A DNA stretch of 64,000 nucleotides from Parvibaculaceae bacterium Mf 1.05b.01 (GTDB lineage: Bacteria; Pseudomonadota; Alphaproteobacteria; Parvibaculales; Parvibaculaceae), in contig BAOK01000001.1 of NCBI GenBank assembly GCA_000509225.1, positions 1,674,001 through 1,738,000 of the forward strand, written 5' to 3'. Below are positions 18,789 through 58,578 of the stretch, in pieces. The translations under genes and the position numbers were made by a program. Positions within the stretch are counted from its first letter, which is position 1; each line of letters opens with the position of its first letter. A model generated the notes under the pieces. The model made no database searches and was not told the DNA's origin. It saw only the letters and a program-made list of their open reading frames with translations.

Positions 18789-20129
18789 GTGTTCGGTAGC
18801 TTAGTTTCAGACCTGCAAGCGCGGCTCACCCGAGAAATCTGGGCCAAGCCGAAAGAGGATGACCCGTTTTTTCGACGTCCGCTTGTCGTGGCTGCTCAGA
18901 TTTTCTGGGTGGTCGTGCGCGATCTCCTCACAGGCCAAGCGAACCTTCGCGCCATGAGCCTCGTCTACACAACGCTCCTTGCCATCGTGCCCGTCCTGGC
19001 GCTGATGTTTGCAATTCTCAAAGCGTTCGGCGTTGACGATCAGATCGAGACTTTGATGCTGGAGTTTCTGGCGCCCATGGGTGCGCAGGGTGTCGAGATC
19101 ACGGAGAGGACCATCGCCTTCGTGCAGCAGGTGAATATTTCTGTGCTCGGATCAGTCGGGCTTGTGTTCCTTATTTACACGCTCATCTCTCTGATCCAGA
19201 AAATTCAGGCCGCTTTCAATTCGGTCTGGCAGGTCACCGCTGATGGGTCACTGGCAAAACAAATGGCGGCCTATGTGAGCGTCGGGCTGCTCGGGCCTCT
19301 AGTTCTGTTCCTGGCCATTGGTGTCATAGCCACCACAGCCAGTTCGTTCCTTATGGATACCATTGGCGCATTCGGCCCGATCCGAATGGCGATCGAGGAA
19401 GCGAGCAAGCTTGTTCCCTTCATCATGACCATGAGTGCCTTCGCATTCCTCTATCTCGTTGTTCCCAACACACGGGTGAAACTGTCAGCCGCGCTTGTCG
19501 GCGGCGCCATAACGGGTCTTATGTGGGTCGCAACCGGTTGGGCCTTTGCTACATTTGTTGTCACATCTGCACGCTACGCGGCGATCTATTCCGCGTTCGC
19601 AAGCGTCGTGCTGTTCATGATCTGGCTCTACGCAGCCTGGCTCATCGTGCTCGTCGGGTGCTCGGTCACCTATTATTTCCAGAACCGTGCCCATCTATCT
19701 CCGGAGTCGGGCCTTATGCGCCTAACACTCGACCAGGTGAAACGGATCTGCCTTGTTCTCCTCACAGTGATCCATCGTTCTTTCCATACAGGCGATACAT
19801 CCTGGACCAGTGCGCGATTATCGCGGCGCCTGGGCATTCCGCCACAGACCGTAGAACTCATCGCAGATCCCCTGCGCCGTGCCGGACTTGTTGCCTGGGC
19901 TGGCGCTGACAAGCGTCTGGTCCCGACCAAGCCTGCCGACATGACCCAGGTGAAAGACGTGTTGGACATCATCGCCACCGACGATCATCGCGGCGCAGCC
20001 GATGATGTGACGCTTGGCTCTGATGCGTCTGTCGATACGCTCCTGCAATCACTGAGTGACGCAGAAAGTTCTGTTCTAAAAGACGCGACGATTGCCGATC
20101 TGATCTCGAAAGAGGCGGCTGCCAGCTAA
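18789..20129 (+). CDS. YihY/BrkB family integral membrane protein
   Basis: A polytopic inner-membrane protein of 446 residues from the BrkB/YihY family (once misnamed ribonuclease BN). About six TM helices lie in residues 35-290, with family segments AMSLVYTTLLAIVPVLALM, LVFLIYTLISLIQKIQAAFN and FASVVLFMIWLYAAWLIVL. The cytoplasmic C-terminal region (about 300-446) contains a winged-helix-like part (LSRRLGIPPQTVELIADPL). GTG 18789 is chosen because GGAGG sits 5 bases upstream; GTG 18777 would add four residues. The biological role of the family is unresolved. Confidence 0.9.
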   Translation: MFGSLVSDLQARLTREIWAKPKEDDPFFRRPLVVAAQIFWVVVRDLLTGQANLRAMSLVYTTLLAIVPVLALMFAILKAFGVDDQIETLMLEFLAPMGAQGVEITERTIAFVQQVNISVLGSVGLVFLIYTLISLIQKIQAAFNSVWQVTADGSLAKQMAAYVSVGLLGPLVLFLAIGVIATTASSFLMDTIGAFGPIRMAIEEASKLVPFIMTMSAFAFLYLVVPNTRVKLSAALVGGAITGLMWVATGWAFATFVVTSARYAAIYSAFASVVLFMIWLYAAWLIVLVGCSVTYYFQNRAHLSPESGLMRLTLDQVKRICLVLLTVIHRSFHTGDTSWTSARLSRRLGIPPQTVELIADPLRRAGLVAWAGADKRLVPTKPADMTQVKDVLDIIATDDHRGAADDVTLGSDASVDTLLQSLSDAESSVLKDATIADLISKEAAAS

Positions 20130-23276: not shown

Positions 23277-23368
23277 GACCCTCGTTGTACGCGAGATCGC
23301 CTGAACCCGCCATGAACATGGCCGTTCAGGTTCGTTAAAGAAACCAGGCGCACGTTCTAAGGGGGCTA

Positions 23369-23416
23369 GATCACGTTCGTTTTAGCTTACCGAAAGCTAA
23401 AACGATAAACGTGATC
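23369..23416. repeat. Long inverted repeat
   Basis: Nested dyad: outer arms GATCACGTT and AACGTGATC, inner arms CGTTTTAGCTT and AAGCTAAAACG, 4-base loop. The total span is 48 bases. It lies upstream of the PepSY-FeuPQ operon and 62 bases past the nitroreductase stop. It would fold as RNA from either strand. It could be a terminator-like or dispersed element; only one copy is in this window. Confidence 0.7.
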
Positions 23417-23431
23417 GCAATCAATAAATTT

Positions 23432-23478
23432 GAGCGGGATCGGACGGAAAACCGTACACACTTTTCCTGATCCCGCTC
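23432..23478. repeat. Rhizobiales-type palindromic intergenic repeat
   Basis: Outer arms GAGCGGGATC and GATCCCGCTC enclose GGAAAACCGT and ACTTTTCC-type halves. The layout (GATC palindrome ends, GGAAAA and TTTTCC interior, GTGTACGG centre) matches the intergenic palindromes widespread in Rhizobiales genomes. It touches the last base of the nitroreductase stop codon and may also work as a 3' hairpin for that gene. Confidence 0.7.
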
Positions 23479-24152
23479 TAAAACCCTTCTATGTGAGCAT
23501 ATTCGTTAAAGTCAGCGCGGTCAGTTCTCAATGTGTTGATCGGCGCATTTTCGTCCATATAGCCGATCCCCATGCCACAAAAGAACATCAGATTGTCGGG
23601 AATGCCCAAAAACTCGCCGATGGTTTTGTACCAGAGAGCCCATGCTTCCTGTGGGGCTGTATGCAGGCCTTCTTCCCGCGCCATCAGCATGATGCTTTGA
23701 ATATACATGCCCAGATCTGACCACTGGCCAAGGCCCATTTGCCGGTCAATGGCAAAGAACATGGCCGCCGGGGCGCCAAAGAGGTCAAAATTGCGGTTGA
23801 AGTGTTTCTGCCGCTCGGCTTTGTCTTCGCGGGCAACATTGATGCTCGCATACATGTCTTCGCCGCATTTCGCGCGCCGAGCCTTATAGGGCTCACTCAG
23901 TTCTTTTGGGTAAATGTCATATTCGGTCGCGCCATCGCCAAACGGATTGTCCACGATCTTCGACTGAACAATCGAGCGAAACTCAGCGAGTTTCTCCCCG
24001 CCAATGGCCCATACATGCCAGGGCTGCAGGTTCCCGCCAGAGGGAGACCGCGCCGCACTCTTCAAGATGCGATTTATCTTCTCCGCTTCCACCGGCTGGT
24101 CCGTGTAGGCGCGGCAGGTGATGCGGGTGTCGAGTGCTTCGGAGACTTTCAT
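23478..24152 (-). CDS. Nitroreductase-family FMN oxidoreductase
   Basis: 224 residues, an FMN-dependent NAD(P)H nitroreductase-like enzyme. The N terminus TRITCRAYTDQPVEAEKINR holds the Arg residues that bind the FMN phosphate, SGGNLQPWHVW is the FMN-binding signature, and GMGIGYMDE is near the C terminus. An in-frame ATG at 24311 would add 53 residues of Arg/Pro-rich sequence from the other gene's leader, so 24152 is chosen. The substrate is unknown (nitroaromatic, quinone or flavin reduction are all possible). It follows two acyl-CoA dehydrogenases on the same strand. Confidence 0.9.
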   Translation of the reverse strand: MKVSEALDTRITCRAYTDQPVEAEKINRILKSAARSPSGGNLQPWHVWAIGGEKLAEFRSIVQSKIVDNPFGDGATEYDIYPKELSEPYKARRAKCGEDMYASINVAREDKAERQKHFNRNFDLFGAPAAMFFAIDRQMGLGQWSDLGMYIQSIMLMAREEGLHTAPQEAWALWYKTIGEFLGIPDNLMFFCGMGIGYMDENAPINTLRTDRADFNEYAHIEGF

Positions 24153-26525: not shown

Positions 26526-26599
26526 GTCACCCCGGACTTGATCCGGGGTCCATTAAGGCCATCGATTCAATATGGATCCCGGGTCAAGCCCGGGATGAC
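26526..26599. repeat. Dispersed CCGG palindrome pair (family copy 1)
   Basis: Two palindromic units face each other: 26526-26551 (GTCACCCCGG ... CCGGGGTCC) and 26574-26599 (GGATCCCGGG ... CCCGGGATGAC). Each is a stem-loop bounded by GTCA on the outside and GGATCC or GGTCC on the inside. The same design recurs at 35871, 39616, 49669-50012, 52795-52895, 53261 and 57617-57756. Confidence 0.85.
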
Positions 26600-35870: not shown

Positions 35871-35945
35871 GTCATCCCGGACGCGCTAGCGGTCCGAGGC
35901 GACGTGGCGTTCTGGGCGAGCATCGTGAGACAGATCTCGGGTCAA
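35871..35945. repeat. Degenerate dispersed palindrome between g13 and g12
   Basis: GTCATCCCGGACGCGCTAGC (from 35871) starts like the outer half of the palindrome family, and the block ends in GATCTCGGGTCAAATT, resembling the other half, but the stems are decayed. It fills most of the 110-base gap between two GTA genes, with its last bases covering the g12 stop. Confidence 0.55.
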
Positions 35946-39615: not shown

Positions 39616-39707
39616 GTCACCCCCGGACTTGTTCCGGGGGTCCAGGGCAAAACAACTCAAACCTATGTTTGTAGCCCCTGGATTGCCGGAACAAGTCCGG
39701 CAATGAC
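39616..39707. repeat. Dispersed palindrome pair inside the GTA cluster
   Basis: Units at 39616-39647 (GTCACCCCCGG ... CCGGGGGTCC) and 39675-39707 (CCCCTGGATTGCCGG ... CCGGCAATGAC) face each other. Stems are intact. They fill the gap between the extra GTA gene and the connector gene. RNA hairpins here could affect expression of the genes downstream of the capsid. Confidence 0.85.
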
Positions 39708-49039: not shown

Positions 49040-49560
49040 AACCCTGGCCCTATCTGCTCGCCGCCACGCTGATTTTGGGTGGCATCATCCACATCGTCAC
49101 GATCCTGGTCTTCCCGAGTTTTGTGATGGACCGCCTGATCTCTGGCGTTGAGGACCAGGTTGGGCTGGGCGTTGTCGCCCATGCGCCGCGCGCGACGTCT
49201 GAGAGCCGCACGGTGGTCCGGCCAAGCCCTGATCTCATCTATACGATCTGCGCATTTGATGTCTCAGAGAATCCGTTGCACATCTCCGCGCCTGTGCCCA
49301 AAGACACCTATTTCTCGCTCTCCATGTTCGCGGACAATACGGACAATTTCTTTGTGGTGAATGATCGTCAGCTTCCGAAAGAAACAGTAGAAGTGATCCT
49401 GGTGAAAAACGAGGATCAGGTTGAGGGCCTAGGTGGCGCGCCCATCGTCGTTGCGCCGTCAACGCGTGGGGTGGTTCTATTTCGCACACTCATTCAATCG
49501 GAAGAACGGTTTGAAGAGCTGAACGCCACCCGTCTCGAGGCCACCTGCGAGGTGATGTAG
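49036..49560 (+). CDS. DUF1254 domain-containing membrane-anchored protein
   Basis: 174 residues. TM at about 5-27, then SPDLIYTICAFDVSENPLHI and PVPKDTYFSLSMFADNTDNF, matching the DUF1254 pattern. The ATG at 49036 overlaps the previous stop and has GGAGAG upstream; ATG 49030 is an alternative. DUF1254 and DUF1214 are often fused; here they are split into two coupled genes. Confidence 0.9.
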   Translation: MKPWPYLLAATLILGGIIHIVTILVFPSFVMDRLISGVEDQVGLGVVAHAPRATSESRTVVRPSPDLIYTICAFDVSENPLHISAPVPKDTYFSLSMFADNTDNFFVVNDRQLPKETVEVILVKNEDQVEGLGGAPIVVAPSTRGVVLFRTLIQSEERFEELNATRLEATCEVM

Positions 49561-50111
49561 GGAGGACCGCCTGGGCGAACGGGGTCCTCTTCATGCTCAC
49601 CAGTTCCCAGTGCCATCGATAACAAGTGTGATGGCGCACAGCGTTTTGATCGAACTACACCGCTGACTGTCATTGCCCGATTTATTCGGGCAATCCAGGG
49701 GCGACAAGAGCTGACGTTGAGGGATCACGTGAACGTTGCTCGATAGTGGAAGGATGTGCGGCATCTTCTTATGTTATCCGATGCCGCACGCTTGGGATCC
49801 CTTACGCTGGACCACCCGAACAAGTCGGGTGGTGACACTTCTGTTTTTCGAGGGACCTCACTGGCCTCAGCTCGAGGGCCGGGGTCGTCATTGTTGTTTG
49901 CGGCCAAGCCAGCACCAAACTCACGTGTCATCCCGGCCTCCGAGCCGGGATCCATATGGTTTATCGCACTAATCGAGAGTCAGAATGGACCCCGGGTCAA
50001 GTCCGGGGTGACGGTTTGTTTGTGAATTAGGTATCCAGCACGCCTGACGGTTCACTTCAGTTTACATCTTTCCCCTGCTAAACTCCCGCCAATTATTCAG
50101 GTGGGGGTTTC
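49561..50111. repeat. Repeat-rich intergenic stretch without genes (family copies)
   Basis: Holds five dyads. Four are family members: 49669-49700 (GTCATTGCCCG ... CGGGCAATCC), 49808-49836 (TGGACCACCCG ... CGGGTGGTGAC), 49927-49953 (GTCATCCCGG ... CCGGGATCC) and 49986-50012 (TGGACCCCGGG ... CCGGGGTGAC). A separate hairpin with GTGCGGCAT/ATGCCGCAC arms is at 49756-49789. No ORF of note. A GGTGGGGG ribosome site for the next gene lies at the right end. Confidence 0.85.
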
Positions 50112-51170
50112 ATGGATCGTAATGTCCTGGTCGGCGCGGGTGCCGTCATTGTCGTTTTAGCGCTGCTGGTCTTTTCGCTCTATGTGCCGGGTGGTGCGCC
50201 ATCAGATGATGCTGACGCGCCGGAGCTGCGCCCCATCAGTTTTGTGACCGACTGGAAAGCACAAGCGGAACATGGCGGTTTTTATCAAGCACTCGCCAAT
50301 GGCTATTACGCGGATGCGGGCCTTGACGTCACCATTCGTCCCGGCGGCCCCGGCATAAATGTGCCGCAGCTTCTCGCGTCGGGCAGCGTGGATTTCGGCA
50401 TGGGATCGAACAGCTTCATTCCATTGAACATTGTCGCCGCCGACGCCGGCGCCAAAGCCGTGATGGCCTCTTTCCAGAAAGACCCACAGGTTCTCATCAC
50501 CCATCCCCGCGATGATGTGAAGACGCTGGAAGACATGCGCGGCATGCCCATCATGGTGTCCGACGCCACGATCAGCGCGTTCTGGGTCTGGCTGCGCTCG
50601 CGCTTTGGCTTCACCGACGATCAGATCCGCAAATATACGTTCAACCTGGCACCCTTCCTGGTAGATGAACGCGCCATCCAGCAGGGCTATCTTTCATCAG
50701 AACCCTATTCGATTGAAAAAGAAGCAGGTTTCACGCCACAAGTCTTCCTGCTCTCAGACCATGGCTATCCCGGCTATGCCACATTCATTCTCGCCAACAA
50801 TTCCATGATCGACCAGGAACCGGAACTGGTTCAGGCATTCGTAGATGCCACCATTATGGGCTGGGTCTCCTTTCTTTATGGGGACCCCTCGCCCGCAACC
50901 GCGCTCATCCTCGCCGACAATCCGGATATGGGCGAAGACGTGGTGGCGCAAGCCATCGAGAAACTGAAAGACTATGGCATTGCTGATTCAGGTGACGCGC
51001 TCACCCTTGGTGTTGGTGCGATGTCTGAAGAGCGGTGGCTAACCTTCTTCACGGTCATGTCGGAGAACGGTGTTTATGACCCGGCGCTCGACTGGCGCCA
51101 AGCCTACACACTTCAGTTCGTGAATAAGGGCGTGGGTCTTGATCTTAAAGAGCAGCTGACCGCTGAATGA
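50112..51170 (+). CDS. ABC transporter substrate-binding protein, NMT1/THI5-like
   Basis: 352 residues. An N-terminal TM or signal (about 5-24) is followed by ISFVTDWKAQAEHGGFYQAL, the start of the NMT1/THI5 type-2 periplasmic binding fold, then ADAGLDVTIRPGGPGINVPQ and DFGMGSNSFIPLNIV. Relatives bind thiamine precursors, sulfonates, taurine, nitrate or riboflavin-type ligands; the WKAQAEHGGFYQA segment is closest to the THI5/ThiY-like branch, but the ligand is not settled. Coupled to the ATPase gene by ATGA. Confidence 0.9.
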   Translation: MDRNVLVGAGAVIVVLALLVFSLYVPGGAPSDDADAPELRPISFVTDWKAQAEHGGFYQALANGYYADAGLDVTIRPGGPGINVPQLLASGSVDFGMGSNSFIPLNIVAADAGAKAVMASFQKDPQVLITHPRDDVKTLEDMRGMPIMVSDATISAFWVWLRSRFGFTDDQIRKYTFNLAPFLVDERAIQQGYLSSEPYSIEKEAGFTPQVFLLSDHGYPGYATFILANNSMIDQEPELVQAFVDATIMGWVSFLYGDPSPATALILADNPDMGEDVVAQAIEKLKDYGIADSGDALTLGVGAMSEERWLTFFTVMSENGVYDPALDWRQAYTLQFVNKGVGLDLKEQLTAE

Positions 51171-51955
51171 GCCCGCCTCCTCCTGCTCCCAACGGACCTC
51201 TTCTGACGCTTTCGGGTGTCAGCAAATCCTACAATGGAGATACGCCTGCAGTCGCTGACGTCTCTCTCTCCATTGAACGTGGCTCCTTCGTGTCCCTCGT
51301 AGGACCGTCGGGATGTGGCAAGAGTACGCTTCTCCGCCTCATTGCCGGCCTGCTCCAGCCGAGCCACGGCACACTCGACTGGGAGGATGGCGAGCGGCCC
51401 AATGATCTGGGCTTTGTTTTTCAGGACGCCACCCTCCTTCCCTGGGCGAGCGCCTTTGACAATGTCTATCTGCCATTAAAGCTTAAGGGCCTATCCCGGG
51501 ACGACGCAGACAGGCGCGTAAAAGACGCTCTCGCCCGCGTCGGATTGGCTGATGCGTCTGACAAACTGCCGCGCGAACTCTCAGGCGGTATGCGCATGCG
51601 GGTCTCCATCGCCCGCGCTCTCGTCACCGAGCCGCCTGTACTCCTGATGGATGAACCCTTTGCGGCTTTGGATGAATTCACGCGAGAGAAGCTCGACGAT
51701 GACCTGCTCACGCTTTGGCGCGATCTTGGCTGGACGGTGATCTTTGTCACCCATTCGGTCTATGAGAGTGTCTATCTCTCGGAGCGCATCCTGGTGATGA
51801 GTAGCGGCTCACATGGTTCTGGGGGCCCTGGTCAGATCGCGGATGACGTTCGCATTGACGCGCCCTACCCGCGCGGTCTCCCGTTCCGGCAATCGTCAGC
51901 CTATTTCGATCATTGCAAGGGAGTGTCTACGGCACTCCGGGACGGTGACGCATGA
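51167..51955 (+). CDS. ABC transporter ATP-binding protein
   Basis: 262 residues. Walker A GPSGCGKST near 45, Q-loop FVFQDATLLPW, signature LSGGM (with RMRVSIARALV), Walker B VLLMDEPFAALDE and switch His in FVTHSVYES. The nitrate/sulfonate/taurine importer subgroup. The C-terminal extension (about 215-262) is ordinary for the group. Overlaps both neighbours by 4 bases. Confidence 0.95.
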   Translation: MSPPPPAPNGPLLTLSGVSKSYNGDTPAVADVSLSIERGSFVSLVGPSGCGKSTLLRLIAGLLQPSHGTLDWEDGERPNDLGFVFQDATLLPWASAFDNVYLPLKLKGLSRDDADRRVKDALARVGLADASDKLPRELSGGMRMRVSIARALVTEPPVLLMDEPFAALDEFTREKLDDDLLTLWRDLGWTVIFVTHSVYESVYLSERILVMSSGSHGSGGPGQIADDVRIDAPYPRGLPFRQSSAYFDHCKGVSTALRDGDA

Positions 51956-52740
51956 GCATGCCGCTTTTTCGCATCCTTGTTCCCATCCTCGTGGGCATTG
52001 CCGCGCTTGGTGTTTGGGAGGCGGCTGTCACACTCGGCGATGTGCCGAAATTTGTGTTGCCTGCCCCCAGTGTCATCGGCACTGCCCTAATGGAGAATTT
52101 CGGAAGCCTTATGTCCGCGCTTTGGGTAACGCTCCGCATCACATTACTCGCCTTTGCGCTCGCCGTTGTGGGCGGTGTGGCACTCGCTATCCTCTTTTCC
52201 CAAAGCAGGCTCATTGAGATGGCCCTCTTTCCATATGCCATCATCCTGCAGGTGACCCCTGTCGTGGCCATCGCGCCCCTCGTTCTCATCTGGGTCGGCT
52301 TTGACAATGTGAACATGGCGCTCTTGATCCTTGCTTGGATTGTGGCCTTCTTCCCGATCCTGTCGAACACGACACTCGGCCTTCGATCTGTCGACCACAA
52401 TCTGATGGACCTTTTCACCCTCTATGGCGCGACGCGCTGGCAGCGCCTTTGGTCGCTGCAACTTCCGGCCGCGCTCCCTTTCATTCTGGGGGGCATGAAG
52501 ATTTCCGGCGGCCTTGCCCTCATCGGTGCGGTGGTCGCTGAATTCGTCGCGGGTTCCGGCTCGGGCACCGGACTTGCCTGGCGGATTATCGAGGCTGGCA
52601 ACCGCCTTCAAGTGCCCACCATGTTCGCTGCCCTGCTCCTGTTGTCGCTTCTGGGGATTGCGATCTTCTTTGCGCTCACCCTGCTGGAGCATCTGGCGCT
52701 ACGCCGCTGGCATGAAAGTGCTGTAAACCGCAGTTCTTGA
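51952..52740 (+). CDS. ABC transporter permease
   Basis: 262 residues with six TM helices. The EAA loop is in LYGATRWQRLWSLQLPAALP, followed by ILGGMKISGGLALIGAVVAE, the SsuC/TauC-type permease pattern. N-terminal APSVIGTALMENF is also typical. It completes a three-gene importer with the binding protein and ATPase. Confidence 0.94.
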   Translation: MSMPLFRILVPILVGIAALGVWEAAVTLGDVPKFVLPAPSVIGTALMENFGSLMSALWVTLRITLLAFALAVVGGVALAILFSQSRLIEMALFPYAIILQVTPVVAIAPLVLIWVGFDNVNMALLILAWIVAFFPILSNTTLGLRSVDHNLMDLFTLYGATRWQRLWSLQLPAALPFILGGMKISGGLALIGAVVAEFVAGSGSGTGLAWRIIEAGNRLQVPTMFAALLLLSLLGIAIFFALTLLEHLALRRWHESAVNRSS

Positions 52741-52794
52741 CAGTGGCGCAATATTTAGAGGGACAGGACATCCTGCGCCTGGCTGGAGGTCTTG

Positions 52795-52895
52795 TGGACC
52801 CCGGATCAGGTCCGGGGTGACAATGGTGTTTGCAGCAGGGGCCACGCCAATCTTTAATGTCATCCCGGCCCCCAATTCTTTGGGGAGCCGGGATC
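52795..52895. repeat. Dispersed palindromes left of the GIY-YIG gene
   Basis: Units at 52795-52821 (TGGACCCCGG ... CCGGGGTGAC) and 52859-52895 (GTCATCCCGG ... CCGGGATC, with an extra inner CCCC/GGGG stem). The second ends 50 bases before the nuclease ATG. Confidence 0.85.
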
Positions 52896-52945
52896 TATAC
52901 TGAGGTCGAATTACCTCATATTGGTGTGTTGGGCCCTGGGGTCTG

Positions 52946-53239
52946 ATGAATAACACCTACTTCGTCTACATAATGGCCAGCAAACGCCGAGATACGCTGT
53001 ATGTAGGCGTTACCAACGATCTAGTTCGCCGCGTCCATGAACATCGAACCGGTTCCATTGAAGGTTTCACAAGCAAGTATTTAGTGAAGCACCTTGTCTG
53101 GTATGAAAGCACATCCAGCATTGATGCTGCGATCACGCACGAAAAACGCGTCAAACGTTGGCGACGGGATTGGAAATTTGACCTCGTAGAAAAAACCAAT
53201 CCCGAATGGCGTGATCTTTATGAGGAAATCTCTCAATAA
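52946..53239 (+). CDS. Stand-alone GIY-YIG nuclease-domain protein
   Basis: 97 residues. YFVYIMASKRRDTLYVGVTN gives the GIY-YIG strand pair (here VYI and YVG), followed by DLVRRVHEHRTG with the catalytic Arg. KYLVKHLVWYESTSSIDAAI supplies the Tyr/His part and ends with the metal-binding Glu in THEKRVKRWRRDWK. One domain only, no DNA-binding extension. Family known as UPF0213-like GIY-YIG proteins; role unresolved. It is bracketed on both sides by members of one palindromic repeat family. Confidence 0.93.
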   Translation: MNNTYFVYIMASKRRDTLYVGVTNDLVRRVHEHRTGSIEGFTSKYLVKHLVWYESTSSIDAAITHEKRVKRWRRDWKFDLVEKTNPEWRDLYEEISQ

Positions 53240-53260
53240 GAGGCTGGTGACATGCACTAT

Positions 53261-53286
53261 GGGCCCCGGATCAAGTCCGGGGTGAC
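53261..53286. repeat. Dispersed palindrome right of the GIY-YIG gene
   Basis: One unit, GGGCCCCGG ... CCGGGGTGAC, starting 22 bases past the GIY-YIG stop. It is in the same orientation as the unit at 52795-52821, so the gene lies between directly repeated copies. Confidence 0.85.
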
Positions 53287-53525
53287 GATTGGTGTTTGGA
53301 AATAGCCAACATCCGTGTGTCCAATTAGCCCCCTTACAAAATAGCCGTTTTCACATCACGTATTTGTAATTCATTCTATTTCACACCCCACTTGACCCTG
53401 AATGCAAAAACAACCATGTTTGCGGCCAATAAATGACCATTCCCAGTGGCTGCGACCATTGGTGGTTAAATCACACTTGCGACCCCAGGAGACTGGGTGG
53501 AGAGACTTGGTAAGGAGACTAGGCT

Positions 53526-53849
53526 TTGGCCCAGCACACCAATACACGCGCGACCACCCAGGCGGTCACCGCCAACCGCCTGCTCGATGGCGAGGTGGTC
53601 TATTTCACAGCTGATGGAACCTGGTCTGATTGGCTAAAGGACGCCGATGTCGCCGATGGCAAAGAGGCTTGTGCGGCACTGCTTGCGAAAGCCGAACCGT
53701 CAGTGGCGGCGCAACAGGTTGTTGAGCCCTACCTCTTTGAAGTTGCTGTGGAAGACAGCGCGATTGTGCCAGCTAGCGTGCGGGAAAAAATTCGCATGGC
53801 CGGCCCAACGATCCGCCTTGATCTCGGCAAGCAAGCTGCTTCTATTTGA
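53526..53849 (+). CDS. DUF2849 domain-containing protein
   Basis: 107 residues from a TTG start with AAGGAG 9 bases upstream. TRATTQAVTANRLLDGEVVY and WLKDADVADGKEACAALLAK are the DUF2849 pattern. The gene is regularly placed directly before cysI in alphaproteobacteria, and is here too, so a role in sulfite reduction is likely. No catalytic motif visible. Confidence 0.9.
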   Translation: MAQHTNTRATTQAVTANRLLDGEVVYFTADGTWSDWLKDADVADGKEACAALLAKAEPSVAAQQVVEPYLFEVAVEDSAIVPASVREKIRMAGPTIRLDLGKQAASI

Positions 53850-53934
53850 CGTGTTTCCGGACGCAAAACCGCAAGAACACTTTTGCTGGAAACACTTGAA
53901 CCACAATAAGACGCTTACAACGAAAGCACCTTAG

Positions 53935-55593
53935 ATGTATCGCTACGATGAATTCGACCACACGCTTGTCAAGGAACGGGTAACCCAGTTCCGCGGACAG
54001 GTTGAGCGCCGCCTGGCTGGCGACATTACAGAAGACCAGTTCAAGCCACTCCGGCTCATGAATGGCGTCTATCTGCAGCTCCATGCTTACATGCTGCGCG
54101 TTGCGGTGCCCTATGGCACGCTGTCGGGTAAGCAGATGCATATGCTCGCTGACATCGCGACGAAGTATGACAAAGGCTATGGTCACTTCACCACGCGCCA
54201 GAACATTCAGTATAACTGGCCTGCTCTCTCCGACATTCCAGCGATCCTAGATGACCTCGCCTCCGTTGAAATGCATGCGATCCAGACGTCCGGCAATTGC
54301 ATTCGCAACGTAACGTCCGACCAATATGCAGGTGCGGCTGCAGGTGAAGTGGACGATCCCCGCATCTGGAGCGAGATCATTCGTCAATGGTCCACTTTCC
54401 ATCCGGAATTCACCTTCCTGCCGCGCAAGTTCAAGTTTGCTGTCTGCGGCATGAATGAAGACCGCGCTGCGATCCGCTTCCATGACATTGGCATTGAAGT
54501 TGTGAAGGGCAAAGACGGTGCGCCTGCCTTCGACATTTATGTCGGTGGTGGTCAGGGGCGGACACCGATGATCGGCCATCTGATCGGCGAAGCTGTGCCC
54601 GCCGTGGACCTTATCGCGTATCTTGAGTCCATCATGCGCGTCTACAATATGAATGGACGCCGGGACAATCTCTACAAAGCGCGGATCAAAATTCTTGTTC
54701 ATGCGCTTGGTGCTGAAGAGATGAAGCGCCAGGTCGAAGAAGAGTTCGTCCACGTCAAAGAAAAAGGCGTGGTGAACCTGCCGGAAGAAGAAATCGCGCG
54801 CATTCGTGCCTATTTCGCCCCACCCGCCTACGAAGCACTGCCGGACGAGTCCTCCGCGCTCAATGAAGCGATGGCGGACAATAAGAAGTTTGCCGACTGG
54901 GTAAAAACCAATGTCGCTGAACACAAAGCTGATGGCTACGCGATCGCCAACATTTCGCTGAAGCCTGTTGGCGGTGTCGCCGGTGATGCGAGCGACGATC
55001 AGATGCATGTGATGGCGGATCTCGCCACCCAATACAGCTTTGATGAGCTGCGGGTGACCCACGAGCAGAACATTGTTCTGGCCCATGTGAAGAAAGATGA
55101 TCTCTTCGCACTCTGGCAAGGTCTTGAGAAGGCAGCGCTCGGCACACCGAACCTTGCCCTCATCACCGATCATATTGTCTGTCCTGGTCTGGACTATTGT
55201 GCGCTCGCCAATGCGCGCTCGATCCCTATCAGTCAGGAAATCGCGGAGCGTTTTAACGATCTAGATCGCCAGCACAATATTGGTGAGCTGAAGGTGAAAA
55301 TCTCCGGCTGCATCAATGCCTGCGGTCACCACCATGTGGGCCATATTGGTATTCTTGGTGTCGACAAGAAGGGCACCGAGTTCTACCAGATTTCTCTCGG
55401 CGGCTCAGCGGACGAAAACGCCTCCGTTGGCGACATTCTCGGCCCTGCCTTCACCGAAGATGAGATCGCGGATGCGATTGAGACCATCGTCGAGACCTAT
55501 ATCAAGATCCGACAAGAGGGCGAGCGGTTCATCGAAACCTACCGTCGTGTCGGCAAAGAACCGTTCAAGGAGACTCTCTATGCCACTCATTAA
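53935..55593 (+). CDS. cysI: Sulfite (nitrite/sulfite) reductase haemoprotein
   Basis: 552 residues. Reduces sulfite to sulfide in assimilatory sulfur metabolism. Two ferredoxin-like half domains; the 4Fe-4S/sirohaem ligands are Cys residues in HIVCPGLDYCALANA and GCINACGHHHVGHIG. The N-terminal half has GHFTTRQNIQYNW and TSGNCIRNVTSDQYAG. Both sirohaem-contact regions are intact. The 3' end overlaps the DUF934 gene. Confidence 0.95.
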   Translation: MYRYDEFDHTLVKERVTQFRGQVERRLAGDITEDQFKPLRLMNGVYLQLHAYMLRVAVPYGTLSGKQMHMLADIATKYDKGYGHFTTRQNIQYNWPALSDIPAILDDLASVEMHAIQTSGNCIRNVTSDQYAGAAAGEVDDPRIWSEIIRQWSTFHPEFTFLPRKFKFAVCGMNEDRAAIRFHDIGIEVVKGKDGAPAFDIYVGGGQGRTPMIGHLIGEAVPAVDLIAYLESIMRVYNMNGRRDNLYKARIKILVHALGAEEMKRQVEEEFVHVKEKGVVNLPEEEIARIRAYFAPPAYEALPDESSALNEAMADNKKFADWVKTNVAEHKADGYAIANISLKPVGGVAGDASDDQMHVMADLATQYSFDELRVTHEQNIVLAHVKKDDLFALWQGLEKAALGTPNLALITDHIVCPGLDYCALANARSIPISQEIAERFNDLDRQHNIGELKVKISGCINACGHHHVGHIGILGVDKKGTEFYQISLGGSADENASVGDILGPAFTEDEIADAIETIVETYIKIRQEGERFIETYRRVGKEPFKETLYATH

Positions 55594-56071
55594 GAACGGG
55601 GAATTTGCTGACGACAATTGGATCCTGGTCGGCGACGAAGACGAGCTGCCAGCGGATACACCCGTCATTGTATCCGCCGCCCGCTGGCAGGCGGAGCGGG
55701 AGACGCTTTTGGGCCGGAACGCACCTTTGGGCGTAAAACTCGAAGCAGGCGAAGCGCCGGAACTGATCGCGGACGATCTCGACCGGTTCCAGCTGGTTGC
55801 CGTAAACTTTCCCGCCTTCAAAGACGGGCGCGGCTTTTCCTATGCAAGCCTGCTCCGGGACCGCTATGGGTTTGACGGCGAGGTCCGCGCCGTAGGCGAA
55901 GTGCTTCGCGACCAATGGTCTCTCATGGTACGCTGTGGTTTTGATGCGTTCGACGTTGCGGACGGCACCAAGATCGATGCCTTTAAGGAGGCGCTGGGAG
56001 AGTTCAGCCATGTCTATCAGGCAACGGGTGATGGCAAGAAAACTGTCTGGCAATTGCGCCACGGCGGCTAG
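55580..56071 (+). CDS. DUF934 domain-containing protein (sulfite reductase operon)
   Basis: 163 residues. PLIKNGEFADDNWILVGDED opens the DUF934 domain; DRFQLVAVNFPAFKDGRGFS and YASLLRDRYGFDGEVRAVGE are its most conserved part. Starts 14 bases before the cysI stop. Family members always travel with cysI and are thought to assist it. cysH, the usual next gene, is not here. Confidence 0.93.
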   Translation: MPLIKNGEFADDNWILVGDEDELPADTPVIVSAARWQAERETLLGRNAPLGVKLEAGEAPELIADDLDRFQLVAVNFPAFKDGRGFSYASLLRDRYGFDGEVRAVGEVLRDQWSLMVRCGFDAFDVADGTKIDAFKEALGEFSHVYQATGDGKKTVWQLRHGG

Positions 56072-57119
56072 AACATCCCTCAAGAATGCGCTGCATGCCG
56101 CAAGCCTTCTTATCGCGAGCGCGCTTATGACACTTCCGGCGCGGGCAGAACTGATTGTGCTCGCCGCCCCGATCACGGGTGATTCCTATTACGGGGACGT
56201 CGCCGGTGAGATTTTCGATTTCCATGTGGCCTATGCCAAGGCAATCCGCGCACCCGATCAGGTCCTCATCCTGACAGATGAAGGCGCCTATGACCGCTAT
56301 GCGGCGGTGCTTGGACCCGAAAAGGTTCTGGTTGCTCCCATAGCGGATATCTGGGCGCGAGACTTTGCGCCTTCAAACGCAGAAGACCCTGTCTATTTCC
56401 GCTATACCGCCGCAGGCCAAGGGGGCGGGTACAGCGGACAGGATGATGCCGACGCGGTTCAGATCGCGCTTGCAGAACTCACCGACGCCGCCGACATGAC
56501 CATCCGGGCGACGCATCTTCTGAATGATGGCGGCAATTTCGTGGATGACTATGCGGGCAATGCGGTCGTCAGCACCAAATTCCTCACCGACAATGACCTC
56601 ACCGAAGACGAAGCCCGCGCCGCCATGCAGCGTGTGACGGGCATCAACCATGTAGCGTTCATTGAGGCTGATGAACAAGGTGGCCTGGAACATGCCGATG
56701 GTGTTGTGAGTTTCGTCGACACCAATACGCTCGTCATCAACTCCTATTCAGAAGACCCTGCCTATCGGCACCAGCTCTACAAAGATCTGGAGCGGGGCCT
56801 GCCCGGCGTCACGATCCACGAGATCGTCACGCCCTATGACGGCTCGGAAATTTATGACGCGCGGTTCGGGTCCGCCTGTGGGCTCTACACAAACGCGTTG
56901 GTCACACCGGAACGCATCTATCTACCGCAATTCGGCATTCCCGAGGATGCTGTGGCTCTCGCCCAGGTGCGCGCCGCAACCACCCGCGAGGTGGTACCCG
57001 TATCCTCGTCGGGGGTCTGCAAAATGGGTGGGGGCGTGCGGTGCATGTCCTGGCAATTGCGCGGGGCGCTGGCGCATGCTCTGCTCGCTTATGCGAGGGC
57101 GCGCCAAGCGCGGCGTTAA
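56010..57119 (+). CDS. Exported agmatine deiminase/peptidylarginine deiminase family protein
   Basis: 369 residues from ATG 56010 (GGAGAG upstream); ATG 56031 is an alternative and both overlap the DUF934 gene. A signal peptide ends near MTLPARAEL. Catalytic residues by motif: Asp in IWARDFAP, His and Asp in GLEHADG, Cys in the C-terminal MGGGVRCMSWQ. These convert guanidino groups to ureido groups plus ammonia. An exported member would act on an external substrate. Its relation to the sulfur operon is only positional. Confidence 0.85.
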   Translation: MSIRQRVMARKLSGNCATAARTSLKNALHAASLLIASALMTLPARAELIVLAAPITGDSYYGDVAGEIFDFHVAYAKAIRAPDQVLILTDEGAYDRYAAVLGPEKVLVAPIADIWARDFAPSNAEDPVYFRYTAAGQGGGYSGQDDADAVQIALAELTDAADMTIRATHLLNDGGNFVDDYAGNAVVSTKFLTDNDLTEDEARAAMQRVTGINHVAFIEADEQGGLEHADGVVSFVDTNTLVINSYSEDPAYRHQLYKDLERGLPGVTIHEIVTPYDGSEIYDARFGSACGLYTNALVTPERIYLPQFGIPEDAVALAQVRAATTREVVPVSSSGVCKMGGGVRCMSWQLRGALAHALLAYARARQARR

Positions 57120-57226
57120 GGGTCCATAAACCCTAAAAGCGATTTCAGTAAAATCTTGCCAATCGCCTTCAGCGTTTCTCCATTCGCTGCGGGGTAAAAC
57201 TCTCTCATGTTCCGAGGAGTTTTCTG

Positions 57227-57592
57227 ATGAGCCATTCTCTGTCGCCCAATCGCTGGCACTATGCCGTTGCAGCCGCGGCTTACTTTTTTGTTGCGGTCAT
57301 CGCCGCGCCTGTCTTTGCCGCGAGCCCGTCTGTGTTTGTGGAACAGGGCACAAACCGCCCGGGCGCAGATTACAAAGTGCTCTCGGCTGGCAGCGAAGGC
57401 CCGCAATATTGCGCGTCTGCCTGTTTTGCTGACACGCAGTGCCGGGCCTGGACCTATGTCCGCGCTGGCAATGAAGGCCCAGAGGCGCAATGCCATTTGA
57501 AGCTCGATGTGCCTCATGCACAGGCGACGCCTTGCTGCATCAGCGGTGTGACGGTCGGTTCAAGCATGCCGGGCCGCACTCGCGGGTATTGA
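57227..57592 (+). CDS. Secreted PAN/apple-like domain protein
   Basis: 121 residues. Signal peptide (about 12-31, cleavage near VFAAS), then one PAN-like unit with cysteines in PQYCASACFADTQCRAWTYV and AQCHLKLD, then TPCCISGV. The CRAWTYV core is the PAN_4 hallmark. Binds protein or carbohydrate; partner unknown. Confidence 0.85.
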   Translation: MSHSLSPNRWHYAVAAAAYFFVAVIAAPVFAASPSVFVEQGTNRPGADYKVLSAGSEGPQYCASACFADTQCRAWTYVRAGNEGPEAQCHLKLDVPHAQATPCCISGVTVGSSMPGRTRGY

Positions 57593-57616
57593 GCCTCTCT
57601 CGACTTACTCCAAAGT

Positions 57617-57756
57617 GTCACCCCGGATTTAATCCGGGGTCCATTCAGTGCTTCCCACAATCCATGTCATTGCCCGATTTATTGGGGCAATCCAGGGTTG
57701 CAAACTCAGGCTTTAGTTGAATCGCCCTGGACCACCCGAACAAGTCGGGTGGTGAC
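57617..57756. repeat. Dispersed palindromes, three units
   Basis: Units at 57617-57642 (GTCACCCCGG ... CCGGGGTCC), 57666-57693 (GTCATTGCCCG ... GGGGCAATCC) and 57728-57756 (TGGACCACCCG ... CGGGTGGTGAC). The last is identical over 29 bases to the unit at 49808-49836, so copying is recent or under gene conversion. They occupy the gap between two convergent genes. Confidence 0.85.
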
Positions 57757-57813
57757 AGTCTGGCTTGGGAGTTTGCTTGTCGTATAACATTCAGGAGCGA
57801 TTGGAGAAAACCA

Positions 57814-58578
57814 TCAAACAGGCAGATCGGACGCCGAGCGACGCCCGAAAAGCTCACCGCGCACAGCGCGATGGCGTGCCGCGTCACCTTTGATGCCTTC
57901 AATGCTCTTTTCAAGCAGGACAAGGGCTTCATCAATCGTCGCGATGAGATCGCGCTCGGGAATATCAAAGGCGGATTGCTCCAACGCCACACGATATTCC
58001 ACATACCGCCTGGACATGCGATCGGCCATATCGTCAATCACCTTGCCATTCTCCTCAACACGCAGCACCACATCCACCGCGTCAGAGAAGGCGGCACGGT
58101 TTGCTTCCATGGCTTCGCGCACGAGCGCTAAGCGCAGAGCATCGGCGGCTGTAACCGCAATGCTGAGATTCGCAAATTGGTCAATCATGGTCACATCGCG
58201 CAGCACATCATTGCCGAAGGCGTGGAGCATCGATGTCCCACTTGCCGCGTGAACACGCCTCAGCGTGTGATAGTAGACTTTCTCACCTTCAGCCTCCTCA
58301 GCGCCGTGGAGAAGGCGATCAACCAAGTCTGGCTCACGATCGGCTGCTTGATCATTAATGGTGTCAGCGATGGTACGAAGCTGCGCTTCTTCCGCCGTCA
58401 GCGGCAGATCAGCGGCAGCGTTTGTCGGCTCTGTCAAGCGGACCACCCGGTCGCCAAGACTGCTCAGAAAGGAAAACTCGTTCGGCTGTGTGCGACCGAG
58501 ATCAGCCTGCCCGGCGCAGGCCACAAGGCTCAACGTCAATAATCCGGTTCCCAAAATCTGGGTGTGGCGAGAGGCCAT
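57814..58578 (-). CDS. Putative helical lipoprotein of unknown function
   Basis: 254 residues from ATG 58578. Lipoprotein signal with lipobox LVAC. The mature part is nearly all helical and charged, with DLPLTAEEAQLRTIADTIND, a VYYHTLRRVHAASGTSMLHA motif and a long C-terminal helix pair. No family recognised. Divergent from the PqiA-like gene. Confidence 0.75.
   Translation of the reverse strand: MASRHTQILGTGLLTLSLVACAGQADLGRTQPNEFSFLSSLGDRVVRLTEPTNAAADLPLTAEEAQLRTIADTINDQAADREPDLVDRLLHGAEEAEGEKVYYHTLRRVHAASGTSMLHAFGNDVLRDVTMIDQFANLSIAVTAADALRLALVREAMEANRAAFSDAVDVVLRVEENGKVIDDMADRMSRRYVEYRVALEQSAFDIPERDLIATIDEALVLLEKSIEGIKGDAARHRAVRGELFGRRSASDLPV

Follow-up and report, generated by a model that had tools for sequence, protein, structure and literature searches.

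A lone GIY-YIG nuclease gene bracketed by CGTC-type REPs in an alphaproteobacterium: a likely RAYT-like module on a different nuclease fold

The window analysed here, 64,000 nucleotides from Parvibaculaceae bacterium Mf 1.05b.01, carries a gene for a small GIY-YIG nuclease placed between palindromic repeats of the CGTC type of REPs. We consider it likely that the locus is a module of the RAYT kind based on a different nuclease, in which an Ssn-type gene is bracketed by its own cognate REPs and its product cuts and spreads them; the GIY-YIG enzyme would thus probably spread or process a REP family whose partner had hitherto been missing. As judged from its sequence, the window gene belongs to the Ssn family, its cutting activity being putative. 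Among the homologues the catalytic residues are conserved, the genes are bracketed by cognate repeats in a usual orientation, and gene and repeats are present or absent together at some sites, while one REP pair was formed by internal deletion of a gene unit.

The gene (52946-53239, forward strand) encodes 97 amino acids and matches Pfam PF01541 with 52.4 bits (cut-off 22.6), the only Pfam domain matched in this open reading frame (ORF), and the HUH Y1 transposase domain is absent; the original prediction of a lone GIY-YIG gene is thereby confirmed. Its annotation as a single-domain, Ssn-like nuclease gene is based on Pfam, alignment and predicted fold. The residues Y8, Y19, G21, R29, H33, E66 and N85 are invariant in 59 aligned sequences, and we take these seven to be the GIY-YIG active site. 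Regarding the fold, the AlphaFold model has a mean pLDDT of 95, and its closest solved structures are BH0048, Slx1 and the N-domain of UvrC. The model shares the fold of UPF0213 (BH0048) and of the N-terminal GIY-YIG domain of UvrC, but identity to the window protein in the fold alignments is 16-28% and UvrC is far longer; identification as UvrC itself was rejected, as 97 residues stand against a multidomain protein of about 600. One GIY-YIG domain, a length of about 90-100 residues and intact catalytic residues are the features by which the Ssn family is recognised, and the window protein has all of them.

The nuclease has no match in NCBIfam, and no Rfam family was matched in window positions 49500-58000. 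A phage origin was rejected, with one match in 50,697 phage records, as was a role in defence, with a single marginal PADLOC match (E 0.005). According to a reading of the neighbouring translations, the gene has an ABC-transporter permease gene on one side and, on the other, a short ORF preceding a sulphite reductase-like gene. The source genome (3.8 Mb, two contigs, 100% complete) also encodes a second GIY-YIG paralogue at C2:305095, 49% identical to the window protein and likewise bracketed by palindromes, in this case of a different subtype, the 29-nt type B.

Three REP units adjoin the window gene. The left bracketing unit, of 39 nt (52859-52897, forward strand), has its head outward and its tail (TCTA) facing the gene, and the right one, a type A unit of 27 nt (53260-53286, reverse strand), is placed likewise, with the tail CCCA facing the gene; a second left unit, also type A and of 27 nt, is found by the unit search at 52795-52821 on the reverse strand. 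The palindromes first noticed around the gene are thus real, the 39-nt unit ending two bases further than had been proposed, and the two 27-nt units stand as direct repeats, as had been stated. Folded as single strands, the three units reach -10.3, -16.0 and -8.8 kcal/mol (z -3.2, -5.7 and -3.1), and the 24-nt core, with up to three mismatches, occurs five times in the window against a mean of 0.00 in 100 shuffles. The family is laid out as a GTC head, a stem opening with A and closing with T, and mostly a CCA end, the CCA tail being present in 263 of 317 perfect-stem GTCA hits. The GTC head, A-T stem start, CCA tail and heads-outward dimers are also the features of the CGTC REP superfamily in its survey (Di Nocera 2013, PMC3733652). 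The C preceding GTC varies among the window units, and variant ends are seen in two of the three that adjoin the nuclease gene.

Dispersed copies had also been proposed, and these stand at 26.5, 39.6, 49.7-50.0 and 57.6 kb (2, 2, 4 and 3 units), whereas the one at 35.9 kb (35871-35903, forward strand) is a degenerate palindrome that resembles the family and is rejected by the strict detector. A type A pair with heads outward and a 20-bp spacer lies at 26526-26599, where the congeners G242, G241 and G008 have no such pair, and a type B pair with heads outward and a 34-bp spacer at 39616-39707, where G242 has one tail-less fused palindrome and G008, whose aligned block includes the site, carries a type B unit. 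A type C pair follows at 49669-49836, of the subtype beside the nuclease of G242, then a type A-like pair with a 31-bp spacer at 49927-50012 (unit search), an intergenic site that holds a GIY-YIG element in G243, and three units (types A, C and C; strict detector) at 57617-57756. The type C units at 49669-49836 and 57666-57756 match those beside the G242 nuclease. We regard the strict hits inside genes, at 19964 and 51831, as chance; the reversed window gives two hits. The 34-bp spacer is kept in six type B pairs of the source genome while its sequence varies. As the dispersed pairs of this genome share the arrangement of the gene-flanking units, a REP pair looks like a gene unit without the gene. 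Two other segments of the window are of a different kind: another dispersed repeat of about 57 bp at 53841-53898, with many copies in the genus and missing at this site in G242, G241 and G008, and a 125-bp segment at 23357-23481 with two strong inverted repeats without GTC head, missing in three congeners.

The bracketing recurs well beyond the window. Homologues were sampled twice, as the best 80 of 508 confirmed stretches in GTDB contigs and as a class set, the first 60 places by E-value outside the source genome from more than 60 matches in 241 class genomes; three loci are common to both. Units were found by strict and relaxed versions of a detector of GTC-stem-loop-stem hairpins, and the controls were mechanical ORFs of at least 100 amino acids, at least 600 bp from the nuclease gene at the same loci. 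Four of the 80 and two of the 60 loci, with short flanks, were dropped from the two-sided counts, and those with internal stops (L053, L079, L168) were kept in the flank counts. Among the best 80 of 508, 50 of 76 homologues have a unit less than or equal to 200 bp away on either side by the relaxed detector, as do 4 of 773 control ORFs, bearing out the proposed enrichment beside homologues over other ORFs, and the strict one counts 32 of 76 and 3 of 773; on reversed sequence, one of the 76 is two-sided with the relaxed detector. In the class sample the relaxed detector marks 32 of 58 homologues and none of 103 controls as two-sided, the strict one 16 of 58 and again none of 103; once the three common loci are removed, the relaxed count is 30 of 55. 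Without any motif definition, the two 150-bp flanks share a 12-mer in 45 of 61 class-set loci against 22 of 610 mismatched pairs, and in 53 of 78 against 104 of 780 cross pairs among the best 80 of 508 (61 of 62 and 78 of 80 loci used). Up to 200 bp from the gene there are 3.72 units per kb, and at distances above 500 bp about 0.1 per kb.

The nearest units have their heads outward and their tails towards the gene in 54 of 86 two-sided loci, where 25% would be expected, and 32 of the 86 break this rule; left and right units are equal in length in 52 of 63 loci. Twenty-five loci (11 of 80 and 14 of 60) are negative by the detector. When these are read by eye, which does not enter the counts, most have palindromes whose heads are altered (GCCAT, TGCCG) or whose stem differs, as in Brevundimonas L047, L050, L084 and L085 and the class loci L126, L149 and L164, and the flanks of L022, L133 and L172 show no such altered palindromes. 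In Brevundimonas L047, L050, L062, L070, L084 and L085 the stem does not start at A after GTC and the CCA tail is absent; by their sequence, these palindromes may possibly form a variant REP class.

Repeat types tend to be particular to each nuclease, as 12-mers are shared within the flanks of one gene and seldom between paralogues: in 14 genomes with two or more fetched paralogues, the source genome included, the flanks of the same gene share a 12-mer in 26 of 35 cases and those of different paralogues in 7 of 70. Unit length also follows the nuclease tree, with 24 changes against a shuffled mean of 42 (minimum 36 of 300) for 82 loci, though this match alone could reflect host kinship; 84 of 142 loci have a usable perfect-stem unit and no stop, and 82 remain after removal of near-duplicates. 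One class genome (G105) has 11 nuclease matches, and the six loci read there show different palindromes.

The window gene is adjoined by 27-nt type A units and one 39-nt unit. Among 14 genomes of the genus and family (G248 and G250, at most 70% complete, left out), the five with a type A-flanked nuclease hold 8-47 type A repeats, the bracketing ones included, and of the nine without such a nuclease eight hold 0-2 and G245 holds 10; a related 28-nt subtype was kept apart from the 27-nt type A in this comparison. Type B is common also outside the supported type B clade, in G252 (32) and G205 (11), and its test is weak (p 0.06 without G123, 0.01 with it). Regarding type C, the source genome has 15 units without a type C gene or any third nuclease, and G242, which has a type C gene, holds 19. 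A strict rule of one repeat for one gene between genomes was thus rejected, being good for type A, weaker for type B and failing for type C.

A strong homologue (E up to 1e-15) is present in 72 of 241 class genomes, and at least four copies of one broad REP pattern are found in 42 of these 72 against 21 of the 169 without the gene (p 7.5e-13). The expectation that genomes lacking the gene would also lack the repeats therefore holds in part, since 19 of the 169 still have at least five. Some repeat types escape the pattern, which is absent from 24 of the 72 genomes with a strong homologue. Among the 12 richest of the 19, seven have only UvrC-sized GIY-YIG genes, suggesting that the repeats can outlive the enzyme or use another.

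At several orthologous sites, gene and repeats are found or missing together. The segment 52739-53347, with the gene and its units, is missing in the congeners G242, G241 and G243, which have 28, 26 and 38 bp there, and the empty sites of G242 and G241 contain no palindrome. In G243 the nearest nuclease (69%) lies 2.7 kb off, in the gap that holds REP pairs in the window. G242 has 19-56 bp in place of the segments at 26.5, 35.9, 39.6, 49.6-50.1, 52.7-53.3 and 57.6 kb, and none of the 12 credible strict units of the window falls inside a block aligned to G242 or to G241, G241 keeping a mismatched type C-like unit at 57.6 kb. In G008, 5 of the 12, at 39.6 and 57.6 kb, are inside aligned blocks, with type B units there. 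At the orthologue of 52739-53347, G008 has a different insertion, of 1085 bp, in the same intergenic gap, which suggests that this gap is a tolerant site.

The same is seen on Sphingobium plasmids, where the gene and both REPs lie between fnrL and a response regulator gene in TYG71, TYG46, MM15 and TYG73 (in the last of these the nuclease frame is broken into two tblastn pieces) and are missing at the fnrL site in TYG72, TYG64, TYG74 and TYG65; the empty site of TYG72 has no palindrome with a GTC head. Joint presence or joint absence is thus found at several orthologous sites, gain and loss being indistinguishable at each of them. As the nearest congener is about 85-91% identical, neither a target duplication nor an exact junction can be read.

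One route by which a REP pair is born is seen in Sinorhizobium meliloti, where a pair at L241 1660-1818 keeps both REPs, the 5' flank and only C-terminal codons of the nuclease, next to an intact REP-nuclease-REP unit, and is an internal deletion derivative of it. Fused palindromes, with heads at both ends and no tails, occur in Sphingobium TYG64 and TYG74, in Sinorhizobium K101, where one of the heads is degenerate (CTC), and at 39.6 kb in G242, and relatives carry a REP pair or gene unit at these three sites; they are most simply explained by deletion between short repeats inside the stems. In the source genome, 6 of 19 non-bracketing REP clusters lie within 30 kb of nuclease genes, where 0.6 would be expected (p 2e-5; type C units left out of this count). 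A general signal of local hopping was looked for across the homologue loci and rejected as weak, the density being 0.14 per kb at 1-2 kb and 0.08-0.09 at distances above 5 kb.

In the reading that we prefer, the enzyme would recognise its own hairpin in single-stranded DNA, for example in the lagging-strand template or in incoming DNA, and would cut beside it. GIY-YIG enzymes are DNA hydrolases that leave the cut strands unjoined, so insertion would have to use host repair. Through repeated cutting and repair, REP pairs would be lost and re-inserted in intergenic DNA, and whole REP-gene-REP units more rarely; we infer both gain over loss at the compared sites and cutting as the driver of the spread. 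A more detailed version, somewhat more doubtful than probable, sees Ssn-type nucleases as the missing enzymes of CGTC REPs and as a second, independently evolved class of REPtron, where units would move rarely, pairs would arise by internal deletion and spread in trans by single-strand cutting, and fused palindromes would mark sites of excision and re-entry.

Among the other explanations, the nuclease may be a non-mobile housekeeping or DNA-uptake device that cuts single-stranded DNA at REPs, controlling transformation or processing replication hairpins, while the REPs spread passively. Ssn is reported to modulate natural transformation in Neisseria, and the persistence of repeats without the gene also agrees with such a device, as does purifying selection. 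In the orthologues L002 and L263 the gene is at the same site in two species with dN 0.009 and dS 0.92, so it is under strong selection to be kept and itself moves rarely; the L273/L274 pair gives dN 0.014 and dS 0.39, and in four pairs besides L002/L263 with both values dN is well below dS. Little constraint is seen in L256/L258 (dN 0.05, dS 0.09), and one pair gave no usable dS. Nevertheless, the joint absence of gene and REPs at orthologous sites, the REP clusters near nuclease genes and the different repeats of different paralogues fit a mobile history better, making this explanation an unlikely one.

Homing appears quite improbable: the enzyme would cut a tail-less fused palindrome, and REP-gene-REP would be copied into the loop during repair. 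Three sites do have a fused palindrome in one relative and a REP pair or gene unit elsewhere, but a simple deletion between short direct repeats inside the two stems yields an identical product, fused forms are rare in the loci (a GAC tail in 4 of 317 perfect-stem hits, each countable on both strands), and the empty sites of G242 and G241 are palindrome-free. These last sites, together with that of TYG72, also count against the idea that REP clusters are insertion hot spots where a nuclease gene merely lands, which we regard as very improbable, since the flanking REPs tend to match each other and the nuclease clade, and other ORFs are seldom bracketed in this way. On its side, this idea has the 1085-bp insertion of G008 at the site of the window gene and the fact that REPs are insertion targets in some genera, according to PMC3733652.

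The preferred reading, of a nuclease that cuts and spreads its cognate REPs, has its closest model in RAYT and REPIN. According to PMC3116915 and PMC2817692, in those systems too a lone nuclease gene lies between two inverted REPs, REP doublets with spacers are found elsewhere, and a REP class goes with each enzyme. The RAYT-like layout with a different nuclease fold, first proposed for this locus, is upheld and recurs outside the window. The differences are that the window gene encodes a GIY-YIG hydrolase and RAYT is an HUH tyrosine transposase, that the repeats here have a GTC head and not the GT(A/G)G of RAYT, and that up to 11 GIY-YIG matches occur per genome here.

CGTC REPs are described in the 2013 survey (PMC3733652) from all alphaproteobacterial orders, though not all families, and also from Neisseria, Wolbachia and Rickettsia, apparently without a dedicated transposase; the present loci differ in showing a GIY-YIG partner. 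In the literature searched, which included passages of PMC12306157 and outside which the Ssn paper lies, no paper was found that links GIY-YIG to REPs, identifies an Ssn-type nuclease as partner of CGTC REPs, or treats paralogue-by-paralogue cognacy or insertion and deletion history. What looks new is the assignment of Ssn-type nucleases as the partner reported missing for CGTC REPs. Should a small GIY-YIG nuclease be this partner, it becomes testable how a major class of bacterial repeats originates and turns over, and, if the reading is true, parasitism of the REP kind arose on two unrelated nuclease folds. Recognition could also be worked out on the natural pairs of enzyme and hairpin, which form a large and ready set.

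The kind of system itself, a GIY-YIG nuclease with cognate repeats, is probably already known. The window protein is 54% identical over 89 residues to a homologue from Neisseria gonorrhoeae (L240), which sits in an array of GTCATTCCCGCG..CGGGAATC repeats; the surroundings of this relative being the same, the window cannot count as the first example. We take the gonococcal ORF to be Ssn, and presumably the repeats are dRS3. Neisserial Ssn is reportedly a single-strand-specific nuclease that cuts at its cognate repeats, with thousands of homologues said to act on their own repeats (Chenal et al. 2025, Nature Communications). Ssn and the window gene have in common one GIY-YIG domain and many-copy cognate repeats beside the gene; they differ in that the window host is alphaproteobacterial, its repeats are mostly inverted pairs and not large arrays, and its nuclease is a predicted cutter. 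In the 2013 survey (Di Nocera 2013, PMC3733652), neisserial dRS3 is placed as CGTC-1 in the CGTC REP superfamily. Two gonococcal records of about 2.17 Mb, NZ_CP119140.1 and NZ_CP119142.1, are filed as plasmids and look like chromosomes.
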